From a virus: a stretch of 21,523 nucleotides of DNA. A model generated the notes under the pieces. It was not told the DNA's origin, made no database searches, and worked only from the letters and a program-made list of their open reading frames with translations. Positions 3,145 to 18,169 of the stretch are shown here, in pieces; within the stretch, counting starts at the first letter, position 1; every line of letters begins with the position of its first letter. Position numbers and translations under genes: made by a program. The stretch spans positions 1 to 21,523 of the IMG/VR virus record IMGVR_UViG_3300032282_006267; one strand, 5' to 3'.

Positions 3145-3456
3145 ATGATAAACGCAAAAATATATTTTGAATTAATTGACAATGAAATAAATTCAATAGT
3201 TCAAATTCCAGAAGATCTTACATCTGAAGAACAAATGGTATTTGCAGACAGATTTGCAACTTTAATTGGAATGATACAAAGTGGAAGTTTATTCCCATCT
3301 ATATTTCAATCGGTTGTTGAAGCTGGAATATTGACAGAACAAAAAGCATTGTCTGAATTAATTATAAAAAAAATACTTGAAAGTTTTTCTGTTGATTCTG
3401 AAAAAATACCCCTTGTTTCGCCTAGTGAAGCTTTTCTATTTAGAGAGACAAAATGA
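3145..3456 (+). CDS. Hypothetical protein, 103 aa
   Basis: The frame extends upstream to 3079, but starting there would overlap the preceding gene by 65 bases, while the ATG at 3145 follows that gene's TAA by a single base. The product is acidic and mostly helical from residue 25 on (EEQMVFADRFATLIGMIQSG), with no cysteines or recognisable motif. Its last four bases overlap the thyX start (ATGA at 3453-3456), so translation is probably coupled to thyX. I do not recognise the family. Confidence 0.6.
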   Translation: MINAKIYFELIDNEINSIVQIPEDLTSEEQMVFADRFATLIGMIQSGSLFPSIFQSVVEAGILTEQKALSELIIKKILESFSVDSEKIPLVSPSEAFLFRETK

Positions 3457-4268
3457 TTGAGTGCAGAATAATTGCTGATTCTATAAGTGAATCTAAAAAA
3501 AGAATAACTACTTTTGTTTGTACTTTTCCAAGATTTATACTTGCTGAGTTTAACACACATAGAGTTTTCTCTAGAAATGCTGCTAGTTCTAGAGCTATAC
3601 CTTCTAAAAAATTTATTGATCAAATAAATAACTATCCAGCAATGCCAATTCATTGGGGCAAAGAACAATCTGGAATGCAAGCTAGATCTGAACTTTCACC
3701 TTCAGACATTCCTGTTGCTCAAGAAATTTGGCTTCAAGCTAGAGATAAAATGATACATTGTGCTAAAGAAATGATGTCTATAGGTGTTCATAAGCAAATA
3801 GTTAATAGGCTTCTTGAACCTTGGTTTAATGTTACTGTAATTCTTACAGCTACAGAGTTTGATAATTTTTTTAAATTAAGGTGTCATAAAGATGCACAAC
3901 CAGAAATACAAGATCTTGCATTAAAAATGAAAGATTGTTTAAAAGAATCAACTCCAAAAGCTATAAACTTTGGTGATTGGCATATACCATTTGGTGACAG
4001 GTTTATTGACGAAAAACTTTCTATTCAAGAAAAACTTAAAATTTGTGTAGCACGATGTGCTAGGGTTAGTTATTTAAATTTTGATGGCGTAATAGATCAT
4101 CAAAAAGATTATGATCTTCATGATATCCTTGCAAAAGAAGGTCATTGGAGTCCATTCGAGCACTGTGCTTCCCCATCTGCAAATCCTTGGGAATATTCTG
4201 GAAATTTTATGGGCTGGCATCAGTATAGGAAGTCATTTGAAAATGAACAAAAAAATATCATGGCTTAA
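3453..4268 (+). CDS. thyX: Flavin-dependent thymidylate synthase, divergent phage type
   Basis: The 271-residue enzyme should methylate dUMP to dTMP using methylene-tetrahydrofolate, FAD and NADPH. The signature THRVFSRNAASSR at 35-47 corresponds to the ThyX motif RHRxxSxNxxSxR, with Thr in place of the first Arg and Ala-Ile-Pro in place of the usual final Tyr. FFKLRCHKDAQPEI at 139-152 matches the conserved substrate-binding R-x-AQ-x-EI segment, and HWSPFEH at 231-237 matches the H-x-S-x-x-EH element, here C-terminal. The order of these blocks differs from bacterial ThyX (where H-x-S-x-x-EH comes before the signature), suggesting a circularly rearranged or distantly related subfamily. An ATGA overlap couples it to the gene upstream. 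With the ribonucleotide reductase at 10106 it would supply DNA precursors. Activity is inferred from family membership. Confidence 0.85.
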   Translation: MIECRIIADSISESKKRITTFVCTFPRFILAEFNTHRVFSRNAASSRAIPSKKFIDQINNYPAMPIHWGKEQSGMQARSELSPSDIPVAQEIWLQARDKMIHCAKEMMSIGVHKQIVNRLLEPWFNVTVILTATEFDNFFKLRCHKDAQPEIQDLALKMKDCLKESTPKAINFGDWHIPFGDRFIDEKLSIQEKLKICVARCARVSYLNFDGVIDHQKDYDLHDILAKEGHWSPFEHCASPSANPWEYSGNFMGWHQYRKSFENEQKNIMA

Positions 4269-5917: not shown

Positions 5918-6841
5918 ATGTCTGAATTATCAAAGCTTAATGGTTGGGCAGGAAAAGACAATCCTTCACTTGTTGAAAGTGAATTTAATTTAATTAAAGA
6001 TAGTGGATCATTTAGAGACTTTAATGTTTATGGTAAAAGCCAAGACACTAAAGGGAAAAAAATGATGTTGTATGATGTTGTTCGGAAAGTTCTTGGTAAG
6101 GATACTGAGAACTACGAACAGCAAATTGGAGATTGTATAAGTTTTGGTGCTAAAAATGCTATTGAGTATTTAATGGCTACTGAAAAACTTATGAAAGGCG
6201 ATCACGAAAAATTTGAACCTGTCTTTCCCCCATATCTTTATGGAATAGGAAGGGTTTTAATTGGGCGTGGACAGCTTAATGGCGATGATGGTTCTCTTGG
6301 AAGTTGGATGGCAGATGCAGTTATTAAGTATGGTGTTTTGCGTAGTGATTTTGATGGAGTTCCTAAGTATGCAGGAAGCGTAGCTAAAAAATGGGGTGAC
6401 ACTCCTGGTCCAGATAAAAAGTTTATTGAAGAAGGAACTAAACACCCAGTAAAATCTGCTGCCAAAATTAAAAGTTGGGATCAATTAGTTGAAGCTATTG
6501 TCAATGGCTATCCTTGCACAACTGCTAGTGATGTTGGTTACACAATGACAGCAGCAAATGATGGATTTCATCGTCAAACAGATAGTTGGGGTCATCAAAT
6601 GTGCTTCATAGGTGTTGATGATAGAGCTACCGATCCTTATGCTATTATAGTTAATAGTTGGGGCGATGCTCATGGTCATCTTAAAGACTTTGATACTAAT
6701 GAAAACCTTCCTATTGGCGTTCTAAGAGTTAGGAAGAAGGATGCTGAAAAACACATTAATGCTGGCGAAACTTTTGCCTACAGTAATTTTGATGGTTTTC
6801 CAGAACAATTAATAGACAAAAAATTATTTATGCTTATTTAA
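5918..6841 (+). CDS. Papain-like (C1 family) cysteine peptidase
   Basis: The 307-residue protein carries all four elements of the papain active site in order: Q69 of the oxyanion hole and nucleophile C73 in QQIGDCISFG, H226 in SWGHQMCFIG, and N246 in IIVNSWGD. SWGD is the hallmark NSWG of the family. There is no signal peptide and no obvious propeptide: the first 60 residues are polar and could be an interaction or inhibitory segment. The ribosome site AGGTGAAAC before the ATG resembles that at 8319-8328. Papain-like enzymes are uncommon in phages; possible roles include cleaving virion proteins, degrading host proteins or helping lysis. The exported protein upstream is a possible partner or substrate. 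The family call is firm and the role is open. Confidence 0.88.
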   Translation: MSELSKLNGWAGKDNPSLVESEFNLIKDSGSFRDFNVYGKSQDTKGKKMMLYDVVRKVLGKDTENYEQQIGDCISFGAKNAIEYLMATEKLMKGDHEKFEPVFPPYLYGIGRVLIGRGQLNGDDGSLGSWMADAVIKYGVLRSDFDGVPKYAGSVAKKWGDTPGPDKKFIEEGTKHPVKSAAKIKSWDQLVEAIVNGYPCTTASDVGYTMTAANDGFHRQTDSWGHQMCFIGVDDRATDPYAIIVNSWGDAHGHLKDFDTNENLPIGVLRVRKKDAEKHINAGETFAYSNFDGFPEQLIDKKLFMLI

Positions 6842-10029: not shown

Positions 10030-10096
10030 CCGCTGGTAATCGCCAGTATTACATACCTTTAGAGTTCTGCTTATCCTTGCGGTCAGCATGGAAGAT

Positions 10097-10100
10097 GGAG
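10097..10100 (+). promoter_or_regulatory. Ribosome site choosing the 10106 start
   Basis: GGAG lies five bases before the ATG at 10106. The in-frame ATG at 10088 has only GCGG at 10079-10082 ahead of it, so 10106 is preferred; the two differ by six residues. Confidence 0.55.
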
Positions 10101-10105
10101 TTTTT

Positions 10106-12397
10106 ATGTCTATTAAAGAATTGCAAAAATATACTGCTGTTTCTAAGTACGCTAGATGGATAGAGTCTGAAAAAAGACGAGAAACTTGGGATGAAAGCGT
10201 AGATAGAATAAAAAATATGATGATTGAAGTTAATCCTTCCTTGCATGAAGATATTGAAAAATATTATGGGATGATTAAAAATCAAAAAATATTGGGTTCA
10301 CAAAGAGCATTACAGTTTGGTGGAAAACCAATTCTTAAACATAATGCAAGAATATTTAATTGTTCTGCTAGTTATTGCGATAGATTAAGATTTTTTCAAG
10401 AATGTTTTTATCTATTGCTTTGCGGATCTGGAACTGGTTTTAGTGTCCAAAAACATCATGTGGAATTATTACCAAAATTTTCATCTGTTAGATCAGATTC
10501 AGAAACATGTTGTTATCAACATCTTATTCACAGAGTTGAAGATTCAATCGAAGGTTGGGCAAATGCTCTTGGGGTTCTTCTTTCTTCATATTTTGAAACT
10601 CCAATAAAAGAATTTGAAAAATACAAAGATATTGAAGTTGGATTTAGTTATGTAGACATAAGAGAAAAAGGTTCTCCTTTAGGTTGTGGCATAGGCAATG
10701 CTCCTGGCCATGAACCATTAGAAAAAGCTTTAGAAAAAACTAGGGATTTACTTAATAGATGTCTTGCAAATGGGCAGACACAATTAAGAACAATAGATGC
10801 ATTCGATATAGTTATGTTTGCTGCTGATGCTGTTATATCTGGTGGTGTTCGTAGATCTGCAACCATAGCTTTGTTTTCTGCTGATGACGAATTGATGATT
10901 AATGCAAAGACTGGTGATTGGTATTTTACTAATCCTCAAAGGGCTAGGGCAAATATCTCTGCATTACTTCATAGAAAATACACTTCCAAAGAAGTATTTG
11001 AAAATCTCTTTAAGGCAACAAAAGAGTTTGGGGAGCCAGGATTTTTCTTTGCTGATTTTTATGATGTCTTATGCAATCCATGTTGTGAAATATCGTGGAT
11101 AACTAGGCACTTCTATAAGAAGAATAGTCCAGAACTGGCCGAGGCTTTATTAACATATGAAGGACCGATAACAACAAAAGAGTCTTGCAAAGATGACATG
11201 CCAGAAGATGAGGTTGGTCTTTCTGGTTGGGGATTCTGTAATTTGTCAACCATTAATGGCAAAACAATAACATCAGAACAAGACTTCTATGAAAGATGTG
11301 CTGCTGCTGCGTTTATTGGTACATTACAAGCATCTTTTACCAATTTCCCATACTTGGGTCATGTTACAGAGCTTATCGCTCGTAAAGAGGCATTATTGGG
11401 CGTTTCAATTAATGGTATGCAGCATCATCCAAAAATACTATTAAATCCAGAAATTCAGCAGAAAGGTGCTGAAATAGTAAAGAATACAAACAAAAAGTAC
11501 GCATCTATTTTAAACATAAATCCTGCTGCTAGAACGACTTGTGTCAAACCAGAAGGTAATTCTGCTGCCCTATTGGGTTCAACATCAGGCATTCATCCAG
11601 ACCATAGCAGGAGGTACTTCCGTATTGTCCAAGCTAATCAGCTTGAATCTCCTTATCAGCATTTTAAAACCATTAATCCTCAAGCATGTGAAGAGTCAGT
11701 ATGGTCATCTAACAAGACAGATGATTGCATAAGGTTTTGTGTGCAAACTCAAGATGGAACAGTACTTAAGGAAGAAATAGATGCTATATCTATGTTAGAT
11801 AATGTTGTTTCAACTTATAAAAATTGGGTAGTTTCTGGTAAAAATCCAGAGCTTTGCATTAGAAAAGAATTAAATCATAATGTATCTAATACAATACATG
11901 TTCAAGATGATGAGTGGGATAAGGTAAAAGATTATATTTATGATCATCGTGCAGATCTTGCTGGAATATCACTTATAGCTGCTACTGGAGATAAAGATTA
12001 CAATCAAGCTCCATTCACAGCAGTTTATTCAATTGAAGAACAAATAAAAAATTGGGGTTTTGAAGCTACATCTAGAGCTTACGAAATTTATCCAAAATTT
12101 TCTGAATATAATTTTAACTCTTTATGGGATGCTTGTTCTTGTGTTCTTGGTTATTTTGAACCAAAAGATGATAAGCAAGAAGCTTGGAAAAAATTAATTA
12201 AATCATATTCTGATCAGTGTTTTGGTTCTAATTTAAAATATGCCACATATGCACTTAAAGATGCATACAATTTAGACTTATGGAATAAGTTGATAGATAG
12301 TTATTCAGAAGTAAATTATTTAAATGTATTAGAAGAAAAATCTACAATAAATATACAAGGCGAACTGGCTTGTGCTGGCGGTGCGTGTTTATTATGA
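10106..12397 (+). CDS. rtpR: Adenosylcobalamin-dependent ribonucleoside-triphosphate reductase (class II, monomeric type)
   Basis: The 763-residue enzyme should reduce ribonucleotides to deoxyribonucleotides by radical chemistry with coenzyme B12. The active-site disulfide pair would be C86 (in FNCSAS) and C378 (in GFCNLSTIN), with thiyl radical C326 between N324 and E328 in NPCCEI. SGGVRRSATIALFS near 245-258 and the CVKPEGNSAALLG / SGIHPDHSRRY block near 478-505 are typical of class II enzymes, as is the C-terminal redox pair C756-x4-C761 in ACAGGACLL. The length is close to the Lactobacillus leichmannii RTPR (739). No separate small subunit and no ATP-cone is present, in line with the monomeric type. 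With ThyX it would feed phage DNA synthesis; dependence on B12 means the host must take up or make cobalamin. The class is assigned from motifs only. Confidence 0.9.
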   Translation: MSIKELQKYTAVSKYARWIESEKRRETWDESVDRIKNMMIEVNPSLHEDIEKYYGMIKNQKILGSQRALQFGGKPILKHNARIFNCSASYCDRLRFFQECFYLLLCGSGTGFSVQKHHVELLPKFSSVRSDSETCCYQHLIHRVEDSIEGWANALGVLLSSYFETPIKEFEKYKDIEVGFSYVDIREKGSPLGCGIGNAPGHEPLEKALEKTRDLLNRCLANGQTQLRTIDAFDIVMFAADAVISGGVRRSATIALFSADDELMINAKTGDWYFTNPQRARANISALLHRKYTSKEVFENLFKATKEFGEPGFFFADFYDVLCNPCCEISWITRHFYKKNSPELAEALLTYEGPITTKESCKDDMPEDEVGLSGWGFCNLSTINGKTITSEQDFYERCAAAAFIGTLQASFTNFPYLGHVTELIARKEALLGVSINGMQHHPKILLNPEIQQKGAEIVKNTNKKYASILNINPAARTTCVKPEGNSAALLGSTSGIHPDHSRRYFRIVQANQLESPYQHFKTINPQACEESVWSSNKTDDCIRFCVQTQDGTVLKEEIDAISMLDNVVSTYKNWVVSGKNPELCIRKELNHNVSNTIHVQDDEWDKVKDYIYDHRADLAGISLIAATGDKDYNQAPFTAVYSIEEQIKNWGFEATSRAYEIYPKFSEYNFNSLWDACSCVLGYFEPKDDKQEAWKKLIKSYSDQCFGSNLKYATYALKDAYNLDLWNKLIDSYSEVNYLNVLEEKSTINIQGELACAGGACLL

Positions 12398-15328: not shown

Positions 15329-15760
15329 ATGGCAAAAAAACGCAGCGATGATAGTAAATACGAATCCAGACATGGTGGTGGTTGGATTACTCCAGCACAA
15401 TTCTTAGCTGAAGTTATGTGTGAAAGAACAGCCAAAGAAAACCTAGAAGAATTGCCTATTAAATTTTGGAACAAACCAAGATGGAAAAAGGAATTCTTTA
15501 AACAACTAAATTTAGCCAATATAATCTTAAAAGATCATGATGCAGCAGTTGTATCTAAAGCACTTAGATCTAAAGAAGGCAAAAAGATATTTTCATTAGG
15601 TGCTCCTTGGCTTAAGAAGTTAATTATCTTGGAAGAAAAAAGCTTTAAAGAAATTTCAAGCTTGACTGAATCAAAAGAAGCTGTAGAACTTCCAATTAGA
15701 AAAACTTTTCAGCAATCTAAATCTTTAATTAAAAGAATAAAGGAACTGGACAATGAGTGA
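15329..15760 (+). CDS. Conserved phage protein upstream of the recombinase, 143 aa
   Basis: The gene starts two bases after the previous stop without a clear ribosome site and ends 8 bases inside the recombinase gene, so the two are likely co-translated. The product is basic and helical: ITPAQFLAEVMCERTAKEN (about 20-38), LPIKFWNKPRWKKEFFKQLNLANIIL (42-67), HDAAVVSKALRSKEGKKIFSLGAPWLKKLI (70-99). I recall similar helical proteins next to uvsX in other large phages, possibly a DNA-binding recombination accessory, but no function is established here. Confidence 0.6.
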   Translation: MAKKRSDDSKYESRHGGGWITPAQFLAEVMCERTAKENLEELPIKFWNKPRWKKEFFKQLNLANIILKDHDAAVVSKALRSKEGKKIFSLGAPWLKKLIILEEKSFKEISSLTESKEAVELPIRKTFQQSKSLIKRIKELDNE

Positions 15761-17774
15761 CAATCTTGAAAAAATTCTAAAAGAAGTAGACAAACAATAT
15801 GGCAAAGGAGTTGCTATAAATGCTAATGACTTATTAGATGAAGAAAAGCATGTAATACCTTTATCTCCAGCATTAAACTTAGGTTTGCATGGTGGAATAC
15901 CAGAAGGCTCTTGGATTACATGTTCTGGACACCCAAAAAGTGGAAAAGAACAACCTGTCTCTGCCATAGTTTATACAGCTAATGGGCCAAAAAGAATTGG
16001 CGATATTACATATGGAGAAATGGTTTGTTGCCCAAATGGAACAACATCTATGGTTTGTGGCATTTATCCACAAGGCGTAAAAGATGTTTATACAGTAACA
16101 TTTTCAGATGGATCAACAGCAGAGTGTGGCGAAAATCATCTATGGAATATAAAAACTAGAGAGCAAAAATCTTATAAAACTGTAATGTTAAAAGATTTTA
16201 TGAACAAAATATATATAGGTAAAAGCACTAAGGCTAAGTATTCAATACCAATAACAGCACCAGCAAAATTTAATGCGATTAAAATTCCAATAAATCCATT
16301 TGTATTTGGTGCTTTACTTACTGTTGGATTTTTTAATAAAAAAATTACTGCGTTGATTGAGAATGAAAAGCTTCGTGATCGAATTTGTGATCTAATGAAT
16401 GAAACCAAGATATCTTACACAAAACAAGAAAATCAATTAACAATAAACATACATGATGAGTTAAGAGAGCTATGTCTTCTTGGTAAAAAAACATCTCAAA
16501 AATTTATACCGCCAAATTATTTATATAATTCAGTAGAAAACAGAATGTCTTTACTGCAAGGAATACTTAGCTTTGCACATATAACAAAAACAGAAACCCC
16601 AATTGTTACAGTTTCATCAAAGCAATTTGCTGAAGACTTTAGATTATTGGTTCAATCTTTAGGTGGAATATGTTTAATATCTAGACATCAAAATAATGAA
16701 GACAATTTTATTTATTATTGTTCTATTATCATTAAAAATAAAAAAAAGTTGTTTGAATTTAAAAAAGAAAAATTTAAAAAGAAAGATGTAAAAAACAATT
16801 TATCCAGAAAAATAATATCTGTAGTAAAAACAAGAAGAGAACAAAGTGTTTGTATTTCAGTTAGAGATAAAAGCGGTTTGTATTTAACGGATAATTTTGT
16901 TGTAACTCATAATACGCTTACCTCACTATCTTTTGCTGCTCAATGTCAAAAGCCAGAAAATGGTTCTAGACATGTGTATTATCTAAACATTGAAGGTAGA
17001 TTAAAGCCTATGAATCTAAGGGGCATAGCTGGCTTAGATTTGAACAAGATGACAATCTATAGATCTACTCAAGAAAAGATTCTTACCGCAAAGGACTACT
17101 TAAATTTGGCTTTTAAAGCCATCAATACTCATCCAGGCAGTTTAATCATCATAGATAGCGTTTCTGCTCTATGTGATGAGAAGGAAATGGATCAAGGTAT
17201 TGGCTATGAGAATAGAGGGGCTGGTAATAAGCTTTTTGCTGGTTTTTGTAGACAAGCAGCTAATATAGTGCCAGTACAAAACTGTATGGTTTGGGCGATT
17301 ATGCATCTAACGCAATCTCAAGGTATGTATGGTGGTTATACAGAAAAGGGTTCTAGAACATTGCAATATCAGGCAGATGTTCAAATGAGGGTAAAGTCTG
17401 ATAAGCCTTGGACTGTTGGTGGTGAAGGAAAAGACAAGCAAATTGGCCAGCAAGTGCATTGGCTAATTGAATCTTGTTCTTTAGGGTCACCAGGAATGGA
17501 AGTAGATAGTTATATAAGATATGGTATTGGAATAGATAATACATACGAAGCAATTAATTTAGGTTGTCAGCTTGGCCTTATAAACAAAGCTGGTGCTTGG
17601 ATGACATTAGATTTTATGGAAAGACATCTTAAGTTATTAAAATCTGAAGCTTGGGATGATGCCACTATAAAAATGGTTAAAACTCAAGGTGCAGAAAAAA
17701 TGTATAAATTATTGTTAGAAAATCCAAAGTGGATTGCTGCTTTAGAAAAAGAAATTAAGGCTATTATATCGTGA
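15753..17774 (+). CDS. uvsX: UvsX/RecA-type recombinase interrupted by an intein
   Basis: After removal of the 322-residue intein the mature protein would be about 351 residues, the usual size of a phage recombinase. It should coat single-stranded DNA and drive strand exchange for repair and recombination-dependent replication. Walker A is GHPKSGK at 59-65 joined to T388, so the intein splits it between Lys and Thr. The catalytic Glu is E414 in YLNIEGRL, Walker B is LIIIDS at 464-469, and H518 in AIMHLTQSQG ends the allosteric switch region. The N-terminal helix (1-20) should mediate filament contacts. The start overlaps the previous stop by 8 bases, with AAGGA ahead; the next gene begins at the GTGA of the stop. 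The protein would be inactive as an ATPase until splicing restores GK-T. Confidence 0.92.
   Translation: MSDNLEKILKEVDKQYGKGVAINANDLLDEEKHVIPLSPALNLGLHGGIPEGSWITCSGHPKSGKEQPVSAIVYTANGPKRIGDITYGEMVCCPNGTTSMVCGIYPQGVKDVYTVTFSDGSTAECGENHLWNIKTREQKSYKTVMLKDFMNKIYIGKSTKAKYSIPITAPAKFNAIKIPINPFVFGALLTVGFFNKKITALIENEKLRDRICDLMNETKISYTKQENQLTINIHDELRELCLLGKKTSQKFIPPNYLYNSVENRMSLLQGILSFAHITKTETPIVTVSSKQFAEDFRLLVQSLGGICLISRHQNNEDNFIYYCSIIIKNKKKLFEFKKEKFKKKDVKNNLSRKIISVVKTRREQSVCISVRDKSGLYLTDNFVVTHNTLTSLSFAAQCQKPENGSRHVYYLNIEGRLKPMNLRGIAGLDLNKMTIYRSTQEKILTAKDYLNLAFKAINTHPGSLIIIDSVSALCDEKEMDQGIGYENRGAGNKLFAGFCRQAANIVPVQNCMVWAIMHLTQSQGMYGGYTEKGSRTLQYQADVQMRVKSDKPWTVGGEGKDKQIGQQVHWLIESCSLGSPGMEVDSYIRYGIGIDNTYEAINLGCQLGLINKAGAWMTLDFMERHLKLLKSEAWDDATIKMVKTQGAEKMYKLLLENPKWIAALEKEIKAIIS
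15948..16913 (+). mobile_element. Class 3-type intein with degenerate LAGLIDADG endonuclease
   Basis: In recombinase numbering it runs from E66 to N387, inserted between Lys and Thr of the P-loop. Block A is VSAIVYTANGPKRIGDITYG near 69-88. Block B is ENHLW at 127-131 with H129 and W131. Block F is SVCISV at 365-370 with C367, and the end is FVVTHN with H386 and N387, then T388. No Cys or Ser stands at position 1. W131, C367 and T388 form the W-C-T triplet of class 3 inteins, in which the block F cysteine starts splicing. Between about 150 and 350 lies an endonuclease-like region: FGALLTVGFF at 185-194 and LLQGILSFAH at 267-276 fill the two LAGLIDADG positions but lack the catalytic Asp in both. 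KQFAEDFRLLVQSLGGI is a typical post-motif helix of this family. Confidence 0.88.
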
Positions 17775-18169
17775 AAGTAATAGGTCTTGATGGTAAAACT
17801 TACTCTTGGACTTCTGGCAATGTTCCAGATCACGATGATTCTAAACCTAGATCTTCATTGCATTTATTGGCTAGGTCTATACTTAAAGCAATGTATCCAA
17901 TGGATAGAATTTTAGAAGAAGCAACTTTGCCTGGTTCTGGAGGTCTAACCGCAGATTTTTGGTTGCCATTAAGAAAAACAATAGTTGAAGTTCATGGGGA
18001 ACAACACTACAAATTCATACCTTTTTTTCATAATACAATGTTGAACTTTTATCATTCCAAAAAAAATGATAAGAATAAAATAGAGTGGTGTGAAAAAAAT
18101 AACATTTACCTTATAGAGTTACCATTCAATGAATCAGAACAACAATGGCGAAAAAGAATTGAAGGTTAG
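17771..18169 (+). CDS. Small endonuclease-like protein (PD-(D/E)xK / Vsr-like fold)
   Basis: The gene starts with GTG overlapping the recombinase stop as GTGA. The 132-residue product has the core of a restriction-endonuclease-like fold: ADFWLPLRKTIVEVHGEQHY at 61-80, where D62 and E73 with H75/Q78/H79 occupy the metal-site positions, followed by a helix with NFYHSKKNDKNKIEWCEKNN (92-111) and a closing strand IYLIELPF. DUF559/Vsr-type nucleases share this D-x10-E...QH layout and KNDxxKxxWC helix. It may be a recombination nuclease, given its position between uvsX and other recombination genes, or a free-standing homing endonuclease serving the intein upstream. Metal-dependent DNA cleavage is expected but not shown. 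Confidence 0.72.
   Translation: MKVIGLDGKTYSWTSGNVPDHDDSKPRSSLHLLARSILKAMYPMDRILEEATLPGSGGLTADFWLPLRKTIVEVHGEQHYKFIPFFHNTMLNFYHSKKNDKNKIEWCEKNNIYLIELPFNESEQQWRKRIEG

Follow-up and report, generated by a model that had tools for sequence, protein, structure and literature searches.

A candidate class 3 intein with a degenerate LAGLIDADG domain in the Walker A motif of a phage UvsX-like recombinase

The window analyzed here, a stretch of 21,523 nucleotides spanning positions 1 to 21,523 of IMG/VR virus record IMGVR_UViG_3300032282_006267, carries on its plus strand an open reading frame (ORF; 15753-17774) for a 673-residue protein whose two ends form a UvsX/RecA-like recombinase: the whole ORF matches phrog_97 (UvsX-like, E 1.2e-23), and residues 388-594 match Pfam RecA (E 1.3e-11). 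The N-extein, residues 1-65 (15753-15947), ends in GHPKSGK, and the C-extein (16914-17771, stop codon at 17772-17774) begins with Thr388, the Walker A Thr. Between K65 and T388 lies an insert of 322 residues (66-387; 15948-16913), with a G+C content of 28% against 36% in the rest of the uvsX gene. Its excision in silico leaves 351 residues with a RecA core and a Walker A motif, GHPKSGKT at the join. An earlier note on this DNA had described a 322-residue insertion between the Lys and Thr of Walker A and a spliced product of 351 residues; the translation bears out both, and naturally empty sites also attest to the former. Elsewhere the window holds phage-encoded genes for a peptide deformylase (534-1028, E 2.5e-23), ThyX (3453-4268, E 3.7e-19) and a ribonucleotide reductase (10088-12397), the last matching phrog_367 at E 3.4e-89 and the adenosylcobalamin-type model TIGR02505 at E 1e-47, below that model's cut-off; a papain-like cysteine peptidase match at 5918-6841 falls right at the Pfam cut-off (E 0.00049).

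Class 3 inteins are defined, in passages of PMC7891396 and PMC5050341, by a missing nucleophile at position 1 together with a Trp/Cys/Thr (WCT) triplet in blocks B (N3:12), F (C2:4) and G (C1:5). The insert has Glu66 at position 1, where Cys or Ser would be the nucleophile. What alignments and a structure model delimit as the N-terminal part of a Hint splicing domain (residues 66-165, boundary approximate; 15948-16247) matches the gp41-1 intein at E 7.7e-08 and contains block B, H129-L-W131 (16137-16145), with the Trp of the triplet. The C-terminal part, placed by alignment (residues 351-387; 16803-16913), contains C367 (16851-16853), the putative block F:4 nucleophile and Cys of the triplet, and T385-H386-N387 (16905-16913) in block G, which supplies the triplet Thr, the penultimate His and the presumptive cyclizing Asn immediately before the +1 residue T388. 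The residues that the earlier note had picked out (H129, W131, C367, HN|T and a position 1 without a nucleophile) are thus all in place, as is the W-C-T triplet that it invoked, with the proviso that the triplet Thr is T385 (block G:5 in PMC5050341), because the definition puts this Thr in block G, and T388 is the +1 residue. In the AceL NrdHF intein, the mutant corresponding to T385A is some tenfold slower (passage of PMC7891396).

The same residues recur throughout the close relatives. Searching IMG/VR with the C-extein gave 68 loci, which include the contigs of the 18 loci that a whole-protein query recovered, and in 51 of the 68 the ORF is complete, that is, uncut by the end of the stretch. 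The intein is present in 47 of these 51 loci and absent from four (L076-L079). The 51 loci yield 36 distinct proteins, 33 of them with the intein, so that the window brings the intein-bearing rows to 34; the three empty rows were left out of residue counts, their TGK having been aligned under THN. All 34 rows share H129, W131, C367, T385, H386, N387 and T388; K65 is present in 33, with one missing, and position 1 is Glu in 32, Ala in one, L012, and missing in one. The single missing cell at K65 and position 1 belongs to L073, counted among the 47, in which the junction between N-extein and intein is lost to an in-frame stop and a missing stretch (about 1900-2000); this could reflect an assembly error or a broken allele. 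Assignment to class 1 or class 2 is ruled out by Glu at position 1 together with the full set of W, C and T marks, and the sequence supports a class 3 intein in the UvsX P-loop, the identification made in the earlier note, to which relatives, empty sites and predicted fold also lend their weight.

Homology to known inteins emerged from some searches and not from others. With the insert as a tblastn query, 314 of 50,697 phage records match at E up to 1e-5, 162 of them covering at least 80% of the query at one place; among the 40 matches listed, the best E is 2e-44 and the alignments span residues 2-322. The matched proteins carry annotations that include terminases and helicases, and the eight phage inteins inspected individually all have H-L-W or H-I-W, a block F Cys and THN|T, with Ala (seven) or Glu (one), never a nucleophile, at position 1. 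The insert also matches PHROGs at E 5.5e-23 and 3.5e-20, and its best PDB profile match is gp41-1 (6riz, E 1.8e-15), an entry whose title lists C1A F65W D107C, substitutions that, according to passages of PMC7664689, introduce the WCT marks. No Pfam or NCBIfam intein model scored over its cut-off on the window intein, the best intein-related values being Hom_end_hint at E 0.016 and LAGLIDADG_3 at E 0.16, and a search of the whole record for PF14890 returned no match, its control being positive in 6 of 14 genomes. The profile comparison proposed in the earlier note is therefore divided: Pfam, NCBIfam and PF14890 stay below cut-off, whereas PHROGs, tblastn, relatives and fold comparison are positive. 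A match to a curated profile (Pfam PF14890, NCBIfam) is customary for inteins but does not define class 3. Among the 10 members of alignment A1 compared with Pfam, five match LAGLIDADG_3 (best E 6.9e-10; the window's own sequence is not one of the five), four Hom_end and two Hom_end_hint, and several also hit NCBIfam models for proteins that contain inteins.

The structure model suggested in the same note, built from 10 aligned sequences (pLDDT 85.6, pTM 0.87), has the predicted Hint fold, superposing on the class 3 intein of Mycobacterium smegmatis DnaB (6bs8) with Z 17.9 over 123 residues (rmsd 1.8), on gp41-1 (6riz) with Z 18.0 and on the Mtu RecA intein (2imz) with Z 15.9. The whole intein aligns with PI-SceI over 312 residues (Z 25.9, rmsd 3.5).

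Natural relatives without the intein place its boundary. A pattern for the unoccupied site found 18 stretches on 16 contigs, all reading GHPKTGKTL and all encoding a relative of the window recombinase: 17 are complete 350-residue proteins with 68-70% identity to the predicted spliced product, and one (L192) is partial, with 74% identity over 237 residues. The intein gave no tblastn match in these 18 stretches at E up to 0.01. The pattern for the occupied site found 32 stretches, and empty sites of the GQPK type were absent by exact pattern. When the joined extein is aligned with four empty-site proteins (L204, L206, L195 and L076), the GHPKSGKT segment aligns and the K|T junction is free of gaps, and three of the four have a 3-residue gap about 14 residues downstream. 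The boundary, read from these sequences, is fixed at K|T. Two records, IMGVR_UViG_3300024358_000009 (L192, L194) and IMGVR_UViG_3300024509_000007 (L196, L199), each hold two different intein-free uvsX sequences, which may represent mixed bins or true duplicates.

The site is a familiar one. Passages of PMC5050341 call insertion between this Lys and Thr the "classic" P-loop insertion and state that ATP-binding proteins host about 70% of inteins. An intein profile search confirmed 166 stretches, and all 32 inteins examined from the best 80 of these, some of them copies or known contigs, lie directly after GK, with Glu (24), Ala (six) or Asp (two) at position 1. By PHROGs and Pfam, the C-exteins are UvsX-like in five (L159, L161, L162, L169 and L174), DnaB in L166 and L180, terminase in L164, Sak4-like in L187 and SNF2 in L170; that of L177 has no Pfam match, and L185, seemingly broken in frame, was left out at its C end. 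Since class 3 inteins after GK recur across phage ATPase genes, in keeping with those passages, the window intein is an ordinary resident of the P-loop niche.

Mycobacterial RecA inteins belong to class 1. They share with the window intein a RecA-family recombinase host, according to passages of PMC5050341, and the comparison with 2imz given above. The mycobacteriophage terminase inteins TerL1-a (passages of PMC5050341) likewise interrupt Walker A between Lys and Thr, and the class 3 inteins treated there have the WCT triplet and no position-1 nucleophile, although those passages do not call TerL1-a class 3; the window intein departs from both in its UvsX-like host and in the loss of its endonuclease catalytic positions. 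The DnaB inteins of M. smegmatis and M. chimaera (6bs8, 6rix and 6riy), class 3 by title or abstract, have a Hint fold like that modeled here (Z 17.6-17.9) but reside in DnaB, and their solved sequences, at 139-146 residues, leave no room for an endonuclease domain. Closest in kind are the five inteins in UvsX genes of uncultured phages named above, which follow GK in a phrog_97 host and bear the class 3 marks; they differ in keeping both LAGLIDADG acids (LGDG or IGDG, LMDTDG), and their exteins are more distant from the window and fall into two groups. A metagenomic split intein in UvsX is reportedly named "VidaL UvsX-2", so UvsX may already be a known intein host. The passages on uvsX or inteins in PMC5259590, PMC10638138, PMC2988022, PMC7824862, PMC2530865 and PMC6690015 describe none inside UvsX. 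Rather than a new system, the window intein represents a new member of an already known type of element.

Within the intein lies a feature that the earlier note does not mention, a degenerate LAGLIDADG endonuclease domain at about residues 177-350 (16281-16802, boundaries approximate), to which the PI-SceI alignment and the LAGLIDADG_3 matches of A1 members attest. An active LAGLIDADG homing endonuclease has an acidic residue at the end of both motifs. At the two positions that are catalytic in this family, the window has Val191 (16323-16325) and Ala275 (16575-16577). Of the 34 rows, 21 combine Val, Ile, Ala or Cys at the first position with Ala at the second, and the other 13 have Asn at the first and Asp at the second; both acids are thus lost in the window's clade and near relatives, one in the L054-L073 clade, and neither in the five distant UvsX genes. 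Seven of the eight inspected phage class 3 inteins have GDG, with its Asp, as the first motif and DTDG or DSDG as the second. Vibrio phage 5 TSL-2019 (L104) carries at 1501-2379 a class 3 intein with altered motifs, GGN and DSRG, and in a near-identical phage the same region bears a terminase annotation. Because Val and Ala occupy both catalytic positions in the window, homing has probably been lost.

The domain has not simply been left to drift. Within the dead-domain clades, its Nei-Gojobori dN/dS is 0.06-0.33 in ten pairs, and across these clades the pair of window and L035 gives 0.64. In the L054-L073 clade, L056/L060 and L060/L067 give 0.05 and 0.03 for the domain, with a higher value, 0.10 in both, for the N-terminal splicing part; three further pairs of that clade and, across clades, window/L058 are saturated and yield no ratio. 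Synonymous changes in the domain exceed the neutral expectation in all six chosen dead-domain pairs (p 2.0e-15 to 6.5e-5, raw ratio 0.10-0.52), in a test that assumes a transition bias of 4 and in which L035/L048 and L049/L051, sharing tree branches, are not fully independent. Neutral decay of the domain is not supported by this excess. With dN/dS low and synonymous changes in excess, the dead domain is still under purifying selection, its constraint relaxed and not gone. Its open frame and its constraint are both kept, and a useless remnant would lose both in time.

The trees do not establish a purely vertical history for the intein. In the intein tree (41 rows, 19 of them UvsX), the UvsX inteins form three well-supported groups, the joins between which the tree does not resolve; the UvsX label needs two changes, and a single origin appears in 19% of bootstrap trees. 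In the extein tree (19 intein-bearing and eight empty rows), six of the empty rows, from L189-L206, group with the window's clade (98/100). The starred branches of this tree require that intein state changed at least twice, so the intein has been precisely lost or separately gained. Gene order around uvsX is largely common to occupied and empty genomes. Overlapping the uvsX stop is an endonuclease-like ORF (17771-18169; phrog_9084 homing endonuclease, E 6.1e-15), whose counterpart adjoins uvsX in 66 of the 68 relatives, intein-free ones included, and in 17 of the 18 empty-site stretches; the remaining two relatives and one stretch are cut inside uvsX.

We consider it highly probable that the window carries a class 3 intein in the Walker A motif of UvsX that splices to give a 351-residue enzyme and whose LAGLIDADG domain, formerly mobile, is dead and no longer homes. 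By analogy with the class 3 chemistry laid out in passages of PMC5050341, C367 would attack the K65-E66 peptide bond and take up the N-extein, which would then pass to T388; cyclization of N387 would release the intein, and K65 would be joined to T388 in an enzyme with an intact GHPKSGKT P-loop. Because the P-loop stays split until splicing, the precursor is expected not to use ATP. Such an intein would be retained since the enzyme depends on clean splicing and nothing short of precise deletion removes the element.

That the splicing function has gone the way of the endonuclease, leaving a pseudo-intein and a dead or cleaved gene product, is the least probable of the readings weighed here: the degenerate endonuclease would fit it, but the catalytic splicing residues are kept in every row, the ORF is open, and C-extein dN/dS is only 0.02-0.05 in six pairs within the window's clade. 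Continued mobility through a nuclease supplied in trans is very unlikely. The endonuclease-like ORF beside uvsX is an obvious candidate, given its phrog_9084 match and its overlap with the uvsX stop, and trans homing by the free-standing mobE is described for T4 in passages of PMC2988022; yet this ORF also adjoins intein-free uvsX genes, in genomes that would be harmed if it cut the empty site, and as the intein's homing partner it is therefore rejected.

A greater, though still small, likelihood attaches to the idea that intein and dead domain are kept as a conditional-splicing switch on the recombinase, responding for instance to the redox state of C367. The P-loop position means that recombinase activity should need splicing, the dead domain shows synonymous excess in all six chosen pairs, and conditional splicing is reported for other inteins. 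The argument from position, by which the earlier note suggested that splicing could control recombination, applies equally, however, to every P-loop intein, folding alone can explain the constraint on the dead domain, and relatives with the same gene neighbors live without the intein. It is improbable that the dead LAGLIDADG domain persists because it serves a second role, aiding, sensing or timing splicing, and that a formerly selfish element has become an on-switch for phage recombination.

The intein described here, predicted to splice and probably immobile, adds UvsX-like phage recombinases to the class 3 intein hosts seen in this analysis. One gene family presents a graded series, from inteins with both endonuclease acids through those with one changed and those with both lost to empty sites, and intein gain, decay and loss thereby become directly comparable. 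If the dead domain does have a role, this family would offer a clean case for testing domestication.
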